Both the position numbers and the translations under genes were made by a program. From the IMG/VR virus record IMGVR_UViG_3300021962_000389, positions 1 through 32,047 of that record: a stretch of DNA of 32,047 nt. One strand, written 5' to 3'. The notes beneath the pieces are model-generated. The model had not been told where the DNA came from. It searched no databases and worked only from the letters and a program-made list of their open reading frames with translations. Origin of the DNA: a virus. This document shows, one piece after another, positions 23,634-28,360 of the stretch (positions are counted from its first letter, which is position 1; each line of letters starts with the position of its first letter).

Positions 23634-23888
23634 TTATAAATTTTTTATCGCCCAATTGGCGTAATCAATAATCTTTTTAAAATCCTCTTTGTCTTGATCT
23701 TTTTGTCTCCAATTGTATTTGTCAATATTAAATTTGCAAATCGCTAAGATTTCCTCCTTACTTAAGTTTGCCTCAGCTCGCTCAAAGGTATCGATACCGA
23801 TTTGATATTGCTTAGGTTTATTCTTTTGAATTTGTGCAAAAGGATTTTCAACTGAGTCAAAAAAATTTTCTTTTGGTATGTGTTTCAT
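23634..23888 (-). CDS. DUF3310-like small protein
   Basis: An 84-residue protein whose C-terminal half, IDTFERAEANLSKEEILAICKFNIDKYNWRQKDQDKEDFKKIIDYANWAI, has the layout of DUF3310 (SaV-like) phage proteins: 'id-i-a--ls--e~~ai~-fNi-KY-wR-k-K----D~-Ki--Ya'. The family is linked to nucleotide metabolism only by annotation transfer; the role is uncertain. It is the first gene after the host-type promoter and the structured leader at 23920-23981. Confidence 0.65.
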   Translation of the reverse strand: MKHIPKENFFDSVENPFAQIQKNKPKQYQIGIDTFERAEANLSKEEILAICKFNIDKYNWRQKDQDKEDFKKIIDYANWAIKNL

Positions 23889-23919
23889 AATATAAAAAAT
23901 AAACCCTCCTCGATTGCTA

Positions 23920-23969
23920 CCGCCAAGCGCAAAAGAAAAGGGAATTATTAAATACTTTACTTTGGCGGT
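23920..23969 (-). repeat. Inverted repeat in 5' leader of the accessory operon
   Basis: ACCGCCAA (23920-23927) and TTGGCGGT (23962-23969) are perfect 8-base inverted arms separated by 34 bases. In the minus-strand transcript the first arm would be near the 5' end, so the RNA would begin with a closed stem. Confidence 0.65.
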
Positions 23970-23973
23970 TGTA

Positions 23974-24006
23974 CAAATATATAAAACTTATTTTAATATA
24001 TCCAAA
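23974..24006 (-). promoter_or_regulatory. Host-type promoter for the accessory operon
   Basis: On the minus strand TTTG (24006-24003), 21 bases, TATATTTG (23981-23974). This matches the Bacteroidota consensus TTTG-N17-23-TAnnTTTG in both boxes and spacing. It overlaps the end of the helicase gene and would serve the small genes that follow. Confidence 0.7.
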
Positions 24007-25746: not shown

Positions 25747-28077
25747 TTAAAAAGCGATATCGTCTTCCTCGACTAATTCAACATTATTTGTTTTGATTGT
25801 AAACCAACGCATCCCGTTAGTATTTCCGTCGATATATTTTGCACCTATAAAATTGCAATACTTTTGTACCCAAATATTAAACTTTTTATTTGTCAACCAT
25901 TTTTTATAATCCTGGTATTCGGTTGTAAAATTATTAAAGTAAAAAGATTTTTCGAGTCTTTGATTGTGTGGCACGTTTTCAATATCCTTAACCCACTCCA
26001 AAAACTCCATAGAAGTCTCAGCGATAAATTTACGCATTTTAATATTTTTGGCGTTCTGAGGTACTAAGCCCAATTTCAAATAAGATTGCAAACAATAAAC
26101 CATATAATTATCAAAGCGCTTATAATCGTCCTCATCCCAGTCGTCAAATAGTTGGCGATTAAATTCGTCGTAAGGTGTCAAAGCCTTTCCGTAAAATTGT
26201 GCAAACTCAATTTCAAACCTACGACGATCGTGACTATTGCCCTCTCCTTTGATTGCGTAATTTGTAGAGATAACCATTTTAGGACTCTCCTCAACTTTTA
26301 ACTTAATAGCGTCTTTGTTTTTACGCTCGAGAGTCATTCCCTCCGTAACCAAACTAAATTTGCTCTCAAAGTCAAAATTCTTTTTGACGTCGTCAAACAC
26401 TAAAACTTGAGTCTCTGGAGATACGGTTTGGTATGGAAACGATTTTTTATCGTCAAATGACTTTCCGTCTAATATTGATATTTTTCTAATTTGTTTTAAA
26501 CCTTGAACGAATAATCCTTTCCCAGTTCCACCCTCCGGATTTTCGCTTATAACCTCATCATTTAAGATTATAGCCTTATTATTCATTTTGTTTTTATAAG
26601 TGCTTAAAAGATAGCCAACGACGCACTCGATAGCAATTGGCTCGTTGTTACTAATATTATTTATAAAAGTCTTATATTCATTTTCTAAGTCTTCAGATTG
26701 AATAAAATCTCTCTGAATAATTTGAGACTTCCAAACGTAGCCGTCAACGTCGATATAGTCAACCAATTTAACAGCGTCTTTTGTGACTTCTAAAATACCA
26801 TTCTCAAAGGCAATATAAGATTTTGTTTTGGTGTCTTTTAGCATCATTAAATCGACGCTATCAATCATTGACAAATAATTCTCTGAGAATATATTTTGAT
26901 AACTTGCGCAATAATTCCAAACGTCAATCTCTCCTCGATCCATTAAATAATTAAGTACAAAATCTTTTATTTTCTCGGCTGAGGTTTCGACTACTTTATT
27001 AGAGCTTATATAAATCCACGTTGCCTTTTGTGCCTCAGATTGAAAGTATTTTTTAAATCCATTACGCTCTAAAAATAATCGATACTTTAAATTATCAATT
27101 CTCAGTTTATTTTTTTCGCCATATTGCCAAAAGTCTTCGTGTTCGGATGCTTCCTTTATTTCGTTGAATGTATCCTCCGTAATACCGTATTTCTCAATAA
27201 CTTCCTTTTTACCTTTCTTTAAATCTACTTTTATAGAGTCTATTTTATTATAATTCTCAAAGTATTTTATATCAAAGTTACGTTTTTTATAAGCGGATTT
27301 TATTGTGGTTTTAGCCTCTGTCTCTGAGAAATCTCCTATCACTACATTATTAAGAATGTAACCCTCTGCATTGGCTTGAGAGATACCATATTCGCAAAAC
27401 GCTCCGGCCAAATCAAAAATAAAAGCGTTACGCTCTCCCTCTCTAAAATCTTTTTGCCAATTCCACTCCATTATCTTAGCAATAATTTTATCCTGGTCGG
27501 TAACCGGTAAAAGTGGAACTCTCTCCGATACATTAAATCCCTCTTCTTTTAGTATTGGATTGAAAATTTCAGCCTCCGGATTAAAATAAATATTCGGATC
27601 GTAGGACTCAAAACAAACTCGGTCAACATTTGAGTTGCTTATATCAAAATAATCGAAATTAAATTGTTTTTGAAACTCTTTAAATACTTTCGGATGAGTT
27701 TCTTTTGTGAGTTCATTTGATACTTTTATAACTCCTTTAATTCCAATTCCTGAGGGAGATATAAAAAGTAAACAAAAATGTTTATTTTGTTTTAATACTT
27801 CCAATTGAGCGAGCATCGTTTCAACGTCAGGATATTTGTCAAAATCGACAACCATTAATCCGGAATGTTGTTGAAGTGAGTTTGAGTTTCGTTCGTTAAA
27901 AATACCGGCAAAAATAATACAAGGAAGTTTTGTCTTATTTTCTTTTGCTCCGTTTCGGACTAATTCGACAATCTCTTTTGAAGTTCCTTTTTTTATCCTA
28001 TTGACTATTTTTTCAATTGGAACGTGAAAAGGTACGTCGGTTGACTTATACAAGTCTTTAAATACTGATACTATCAT
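25747..28077 (-). CDS. Replicative primase-helicase (BT4734/VirE_N domain plus SF3-type helicase)
   Basis: A 776-residue protein. Residues 1-170 resemble the BT4734-like (VirE N-terminal) domain: FHVPIEKIVNRIKKG, then HSGLMVVDFDKYPD with two acidic residues and CLLFISPSGIGIKGVIKV. This is the primase-type domain linked to Bacteroidota replication proteins. Residues 200-275 form a helical linker (WNWQKDFREGERNAFIFDLAGAF), like PriCT regions. The C-terminal helicase has Walker A PEGGTGKGLFVQGL near residue 512, Walker B TQVLVFDDV near 559 and a sensor-type segment PKMVISTNYAIKG. No DNA polymerase gene is seen, so the phage probably loads host polymerase. A terminator hairpin lies directly upstream of its start codon. 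Confidence 0.88.
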   Translation of the reverse strand: MIVSVFKDLYKSTDVPFHVPIEKIVNRIKKGTSKEIVELVRNGAKENKTKLPCIIFAGIFNERNSNSLQQHSGLMVVDFDKYPDVETMLAQLEVLKQNKHFCLLFISPSGIGIKGVIKVSNELTKETHPKVFKEFQKQFNFDYFDISNSNVDRVCFESYDPNIYFNPEAEIFNPILKEEGFNVSERVPLLPVTDQDKIIAKIMEWNWQKDFREGERNAFIFDLAGAFCEYGISQANAEGYILNNVVIGDFSETEAKTTIKSAYKKRNFDIKYFENYNKIDSIKVDLKKGKKEVIEKYGITEDTFNEIKEASEHEDFWQYGEKNKLRIDNLKYRLFLERNGFKKYFQSEAQKATWIYISSNKVVETSAEKIKDFVLNYLMDRGEIDVWNYCASYQNIFSENYLSMIDSVDLMMLKDTKTKSYIAFENGILEVTKDAVKLVDYIDVDGYVWKSQIIQRDFIQSEDLENEYKTFINNISNNEPIAIECVVGYLLSTYKNKMNNKAIILNDEVISENPEGGTGKGLFVQGLKQIRKISILDGKSFDDKKSFPYQTVSPETQVLVFDDVKKNFDFESKFSLVTEGMTLERKNKDAIKLKVEESPKMVISTNYAIKGEGNSHDRRRFEIEFAQFYGKALTPYDEFNRQLFDDWDEDDYKRFDNYMVYCLQSYLKLGLVPQNAKNIKMRKFIAETSMEFLEWVKDIENVPHNQRLEKSFYFNNFTTEYQDYKKWLTNKKFNIWVQKYCNFIGAKYIDGNTNGMRWFTIKTNNVELVEEDDIAF

Positions 28078-28082
28078 AGTGT

Positions 28083-28133
28083 AAAAAAATAGTCCCCAAT
28101 ACCAGCAGTGGTAGTTGCGTGGTATTAGGGACT
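28083..28133 (-). terminator. Terminator hairpin directly before the primase start (attenuator candidate)
   Basis: On the minus strand AGTCCCTAATACCA pairs with TGGTATTGGGGACT (14 pairs including one G-U), extended by GCA/TGC around an 8-base loop ACTACCAC, and followed by A and seven Ts. The start codon lies 5 bases after the T-run. An intrinsic terminator in this position would block the primase gene unless bypassed, so it looks like an attenuator. Confidence 0.8.
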
Positions 28134-28174
28134 TTGTAAAAAGTTAAATTATGGCTACCACTCCAAATGTTTTT

Positions 28175-28182
28175 CAAAGATA
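28175..28182 (-). promoter_or_regulatory. Host-type -7 box before the primase leader
   Basis: TATCTTTG on the minus strand fits TAnnTTTG and is identical to the box at 31599-31606. No TTTG is seen 17-23 bases upstream. Transcription from here would give a leader of about 90 bases ending in the terminator hairpin. Confidence 0.5.
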
Positions 28183-28221
28183 ATAATAAATTTTATATAA
28201 ACTAATTTTTTTTATTTTTTT

Positions 28222-28332
28222 TTAATAGTACACATACAACACATTTTTTTGGAAAATGTACCCCCCCCTTTACATTTCAAAATTTTATTTTCTAAGGGGG
28301 TATAGGGAAACGCTTAAAATGTGTACTATTAA
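28222..28332. repeat. Nested inverted repeats, candidate replication origin
   Basis: Outer arms: TTAATAGTACACAT (28222-28235) and ATGTGTACTATTAA (28319-28332), 14 perfect pairs. Inside: CCCCCTT (28264-28270) with AAGGGGG (28294-28300), and AAATGTA (28254-28260) with TACATTT (28271-28277), which cannot both form with the first. An eight-C run sits between them. Its place between SSB-like and primase-helicase genes suggests an origin or a protein-binding regulatory region. Confidence 0.55.
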
Positions 28333-28334
28333 GC

Positions 28335-28360
28335 AAAAAAAGGAGGACTTAAGTCCTCCG
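28335..28360 (-). terminator. Terminator after the SSB-like gene
   Basis: A perfect palindrome GGAGGACTTAAGTCCTCC (28342-28359) is followed on the minus strand by seven Ts. It lies 27 bases after the stop codon and ends the early operon. Confidence 0.9.

Follow-up and report, generated by a model that had tools for sequence, protein, structure and literature searches.

A 5′ seed complementary to its own terminator loop defines a family of putative RNA-only attenuators in mostly virulent Bacteroidota phages

The leader of a phage primase gene carries near its predicted 5′ end a short sequence, the seed, that is complementary to the loop of the terminator hairpin in the same transcript, and leaders of this design recur in related phages. 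We consider it probable (roughly 60%) that they are transcription attenuators made of RNA alone, carried by mostly virulent phages of Bacteroidota, in which pairing between the 5′ seed and the terminator loop would play the regulatory role. The window, that is, the whole stretch of DNA analysed here, is a virus record of 32,047 bases; its gene content, including terminase, portal, tape measure, primase and helicase, together with TAnnTTTG promoters, is that of a Bacteroidota-type tailed phage. The primase gene lies on the minus strand (25747–28077) and its product contains the BT4734-like_N and PriCT_1 domains (phrog_28855).

The leader before the primase gene, element 1, is likewise on the minus strand. 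Its predicted promoter comprises the −7 box TATCTTTG (28175–28182), of the form TAnnTTTG, and a −33-like TTAG (28202–28205) at a distance of 19 nt, which fits the Bacteroidota promoter and would leave about 6 nt between the RNA 5′ end and the seed. The seed AGUGGUAG (28155–28162) sits in the 8-nt loop, A plus GUGGUAG, of a small 5′ hairpin with a UGG/CCA stem (HP1, 28152–28165), and the design is therefore of the loop-loop type. The terminator hairpin HP2 (28091–28133) contains 17 bp with a bulged C, and reads from 5′ to 3′ as AGTCCCTAATACCA, the bulged C, GCA, the loop ACTACCAC (28115–28108), TGC and TGGTATTGGGGACT, followed by an A and a U7 tract (28083–28089). Its 8-nt apical loop (28108–28115), ACUACCAC, holds the anti-seed CUACCAC. 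With a folding energy of −28.5 kcal/mol (z = −5.7) and the U tract directly after the stable stem, HP2 has the make-up of an intrinsic terminator. Specifically, AGUGGUAG (28162–28155) is complementary to CUACCACU (28114–28107) over 8 bp, 7 of which lie within the 8-nt loop, and an exact search of the window finds the octamer at these two places only (0.28 expected). A first-pass annotation of this DNA had described the hairpin and seven Us ending 5 bases before the primase ATG at 28077, the 7–8-nt match between the loop (CUACCAC) and the upstream GUGGUAG, and the TAnnTTTG box just upstream of the leader, and all three proved exact in letters and place.

The upstream regions of 80 primase relatives served as our first sample. 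The letters of these leaders differ, while their order is constant: box, seed, linker, terminator with complementary loop, and ATG. The seed/loop pairs include AACUACGAC/GUCGUAGUU, AACUCCUAC/GUAGGAGUU and GGUCUGAC/GUCAGACC, as well as AGGUCUGGC/GCCAGACCU, AGGUGUGGC/GCCACACCU and GUGCAACAAUGA/UCAUUGUUGCAC. A terminator hairpin stands behind the box in 41 of the 77 primase leaders tested, the remainder having other upstream regions. At loci L026–L030, about 100 nt before the primase, a long hairpin lacks the U run and the complement is just 5 nt long (GGCGG/CCGCC); these leaders may be a variant that does not terminate. Wider scans and whole records brought the sample to 313 non-redundant contigs (4.15 Mb), in which a relaxed detector of our own making, expected to return some false elements, found 339 candidates on 206 contigs. 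The element-bearing relatives are all metagenome or MAG sequences, with predicted strands and start sites. The seed mostly starts 3–15 nt after the box, and across the family TTNG is enriched upstream of the box with a peak at 19-nt spacing, which supports the boxes being real promoters.

The test against chance covered all distinct leaders with a box, a strong terminator and a nearby ATG, the complement not being required for entry. In 99 of 127 such leaders the loop is complementary, over 7 nt or more, to a stretch within the first 40 nt, against 7.0 expected from dinucleotide-shuffled leaders and 8.0 from swapped loops. When the test was confined to primase leaders, the automatic run passed 9 of 14 hairpin clusters (0.7 expected), and four of the five failing clusters (L025, L057, L064 and L066) do have the pair on inspection, an upstream box having been picked. 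Additionally, two structural families, B and C, were retrieved on the terminator sequence alone, any loop being accepted, so that their complement is no selection effect. The exact 7-nt complement is present in 92 of 94 members of family C, compared with 30% for shuffled partners, and the two misses are a G-U wobble (L384) and an unrelated match within a gene (L398); in family B a complement is present in 36 of 36, compared with 17%. A chance match of loop and leader is ruled out by these terminator-only retrievals and the count of 99 against about 7.

The first-pass annotation had staked the loop pairing on covariation in homologues, and compensatory changes were indeed found. In an alignment of 57 family C sequences (A1), 100% of the cells of the seed-loop helix are paired, and three of its seven pairs have changed on both sides (24, 9 and 12 cells, with 2 more of a third type at a pair that is already in this count, hence 45–47 double changes by the per-pair table). 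Both-side changes also affect three of the four pairs of HP1, whose stem covaries strongly, and all seven pairs of the outer terminator stem, while every measure collapses when the partners are slid by 1–3 columns. Family A, to which element 1 belongs, has seed and loop invariant, with the seven seed-loop pairs intact in 24 of 24 sequences, and thus holds no covariation information on that pairing. Its terminator stem does covary, with 100% pairing and double changes at 6 of 17 pairs, and in six sequences the loop-closing pair has changed from A-U to G-C, which fixes the loop at 8 nt. The HP1 loop consists of one base plus seven pairing bases in families A and C; HP1 is not universal, since some members of family B carry their 5′ seed without it. 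We conclude that the seed-loop pairing is real; as a structure deduced from aligned sequences alone, it appears unusually secure.

Our model of how the element would work is as follows. A TAnnTTTG promoter would start a leader RNA of about 77 nt (predicted length), with a seed of 7–10 nt at its 5′ end, in many cases presented by the loop of a small hairpin. An intrinsic terminator, its apical loop reverse-complementary to the seed, would follow after about 20 nt, and the start codon of one phage gene would lie about 14 nt further on (median distance from hairpin to ATG 14 nt; 5–95% range 6–45 nt). Seed and loop would form a loop-loop (kissing) or pseudoknot helix of 7–10 bp, the pairing itself being shown by covariation. 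The loop emerging from RNA polymerase would be met by the seed before the 3′ arm exists, and this pairing would delay or alter closure of the terminator, thereby setting the amount of transcription into the gene; in the finished RNA the helix could stay as a kissing or pseudoknot helix.

When RNA cut just after the loop is folded computationally, 96% of 102 distinct elements form the seed-loop helix (median energies −11.2 kcal/mol for the seed-loop duplex and −17.3 kcal/mol for the terminator), so that the helix can form before the terminator closes, a result that is built in to some extent because GC-rich complements in an AT-rich RNA will pair. It had been suggested that leader and loop pair with each other instead of the hairpin arms, or as a pseudoknot. 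The partner of the seed is the loop rather than the arms, and what survives of the former idea is that the seed-loop helix can precede the terminator; the latter stands insofar as the helix could coexist with the closed terminator as a pseudoknot or kissing complex. Once the RNA is complete the helix leaves the terminator stem in place, and its role may be no more than decoration of a terminator that works constitutively. Linkers are not longer where stems are taller (Spearman −0.22, 112 seeds), and geometry thus gives no support for simultaneous cis pairing of the seed and the full terminator.

A constitutive terminator could also belong to a free-standing small RNA, its 5′ end tied to the 3′ hairpin by the seed-loop helix so as to protect the RNA or bind a protein, while transcription of the downstream gene would come from promoters further upstream or from a fixed level of leakage. 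The terminators are very stable, and both family A and family C have letters conserved beyond the paired positions, which would also be expected of a protein site; yet the element lies nearly always directly before a start codon, ahead of unrelated genes, and no other target is enriched in the genome. In the window, moreover, a separate terminator-like hairpin (GGAGGACTTAAGTCCTCC plus a T run, 28334–28359), behind a 229-aa ORF, parts the primase from the gene upstream and would isolate the primase unit. We therefore regard the small-RNA explanation as improbable. Control of translation, by which seed-loop pairing in cis or in trans would open or close the hairpin beside the start codon in the read-through mRNA, would suit the short distance between hairpin and ATG and has a phage precedent in IsrK (PMC4825925). 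We consider it very improbable, since there is no evident ribosome-binding site to mask and the elements examined have a U tract after the hairpin (part of the detector, but also present in the families fetched without it), which suggests termination.

Attenuation of transcription thus remains our preferred reading, and the elements are spread over many genes. The genes behind them encode primases, NUMOD4/HNH and GIY-YIG endonucleases (the endonucleases mostly with family C), T5orf172, C5 methylase, Prim-Pol and HTH_36 proteins, and short ORFs of no assigned function. The name attenuator, which the first-pass annotation gave to the primase leader, suits the anatomy (a promoter-like box, a terminator and an ATG close by), whereas control of transcription is what we infer from it; likewise, element 1 does sit before the primase, as claimed, but the element is a phage-wide, gene-specific module not peculiar to that gene. 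The window itself has a second element (23973–23904, minus strand), unrelated to element 1 in letters and pairing. It comprises a predicted promoter with the −7 box TATATTTG (23974–23981), the seed ACCGCCAA (23962–23969) at the predicted 5′ end, and a terminator hairpin (23904–23942) with the loop GCUUGGCGGUA and the anti-seed UUGGCGGU, before a gene (23634–23888, minus strand) for an 84-aa nucleotide-kinase-like C-terminal domain.

More than one element is present in 92 contigs, and some phages have two to five, each with its own code, so that the genes would be controlled separately. Outside the element, seed and anti-seed are not over-represented in the same genomes (40 against 39.0 and 45 against 40.0 expected), which makes the element itself the partner and rules out a second target elsewhere in the phage. 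The elements also move: of 65 primase pairs with 95% identity or more, 12 have incompatible elements, and L017 and L018, with primases 98.5% identical, carry entirely different ones. The sequences show the leader to be swapped between phages as a module or cassette, and family C genes and leaders behave as if they travel together.

None of the 148 pairs of elements on a common contig has a 7-nt pairing in common. Free permutation predicts 9.0, permutation inside downstream-gene clusters 2.7 (P = 0.04) and permutation inside structural families 1.8 (P = 0.13); with related contigs being non-independent, such avoidance is suggestive only. It hints at action in trans, in which the loop of the terminated leader of about 77 nt kisses the seed hairpin of nascent copies and tips termination, as a self-antisense feedback. 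This reading, which we consider rather unlikely, also draws on the incompatible elements at the same gene in close relatives, on the loop-loop antisense binding of the pT181 attenuator (PMC4878617) and on the short IsrK RNA, whose target in trans is the read-through form of IsrK itself (PMC4825925). Weighing against it, the avoidance is not significant within structural families, the seed and loop of a single RNA can satisfy each other, and the family A seed is unchanged in all 24 sequences. Furthermore, there is no lysogeny to protect in most carriers: the PF00589 (tyrosine) integrase, the only type searched for, is lacking in the window and in 26 of 29 records, in keeping with mostly virulent phages, which makes P4-style lysogenic immunity unlikely as a general purpose. 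Dosage feedback in the lytic cycle would fit such integrase-poor carriers. If feedback in trans did operate, expression might fall as phage copies rise and a co-infecting phage with the same code might be damped. A phage-wide RNA code, with self-antisense attenuators on several genes, each terminated leader acting in trans on its own gene only, and more than 100 pairings swapped between phages like immunity specificities, is similarly a speculative possibility. An interior loop below the apical loop was considered as a mark of trans-kissing RNAs and dropped, as it occurs in 91% of elements and nearly as often (85%) in length-matched control terminators.

In the plasmid copy-control kissing RNAs (ColE1 RNA I/II and R1 CopA/CopT), loops of about 7 nt are nearly fully paired, loop letters diversify, and the two RNAs come from opposite strands, whereas here both loops lie on one strand of a single leader. 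With the pT181 attenuator, which uses a separate antisense RNA bound by loop-loop contact and an antiterminator that sequesters the 5′ arm of the terminator (PMC4878617), the element shares putative RNA-only control of an intrinsic terminator in the 5′ leader and specificity from loop-loop pairing; orthogonal variants of such attenuators can be made (PMC4878617; PMC3753616). No antisense gene was seen for our leaders, in which the seed is instead complementary to the loop of its own terminator, and the conserved partner in families A and C is this apical loop rather than the 5′ arm, although the family A seed could also pair with 6 nt of that arm (UACCAC), which is not general. The P4 CI RNA (seqA/CI/seqC), in the account of PMC4825925, belongs to a replication leader with complementary sequences upstream of and inside the RNA and premature termination, and resembles our leaders in having a complement upstream of and inside an RNA structure. 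That account has P4 serving lysogenic immunity with two targets and RNA processing, whereas we find one seed and one anti-seed, without copies both upstream and downstream, a terminator at the gene, and mostly integrase-free carriers. IsrK of Gifsy-1, like our predicted transcripts, yields a short terminated RNA and a read-through mRNA from one promoter, the short form acting on the long; it differs in activating translation of orf45/anrP (PMC4825925). The element thus shares parts with pT181, P4 CI and IsrK and falls under no one definition.

No Rfam 15 family scored above the gathering threshold in the window, nor was there an Rfam match of any kind in six relatives at a permissive threshold, and a known Rfam RNA is thereby ruled out as its identity. 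Element 1 has no blastn match among 50,697 phage records, and the element is absent from the cultured phages phi46:1 and Leef_1. A covariance model of family C (R1) gave one marginal match, not an element, in 299 Flavobacterium genomes, which disposes of an origin from host genes there. We found no description of the element in the open-licence literature. Hundreds of related leaders in other phages retain the match with altered letters, which suggests a so far unrecognised family of RNA switches acting on individual phage genes. If our reading is right, replication and homing-endonuclease genes of many virulent Bacteroidota phages are under an RNA-only switch that is missing from the family libraries searched, and RNA-coded interaction between co-infecting phages becomes possible. 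The elements offer a testable model of a terminator tuned by its own 5′ end and a natural set of more than 100 distinct loop-loop pairings usable for synthetic attenuators.

Several further features were observed. Family C terminators have an invariant GAUAAAG/CUUUUGA internal loop (tandem G-A), as in L013 (4218), L040 (7480 and 9350) and about 100 other loci, mostly before homing-type endonuclease genes. The N-terminal part of the window's primase shows a resemblance, scoring below the cut-off, to CRISPR-associated primase-polymerase type B (NF040562, E = 3e-16). In G004 (L234, L235) primase pieces lie at both record ends, as expected of a circular or permuted genome with assembly overlap. 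Just upstream of the element 1 promoter, an inverted repeat (28215–28339; arms 28215–28235 and 28319–28339, 90% complementary) encloses C-rich and G8 tracts. A similar C-tract/G-tract block, with different flanking repeats, lies beside the primase in L040, L042, L043 and L045, and together with the inverted repeat we consider it a candidate replication origin.
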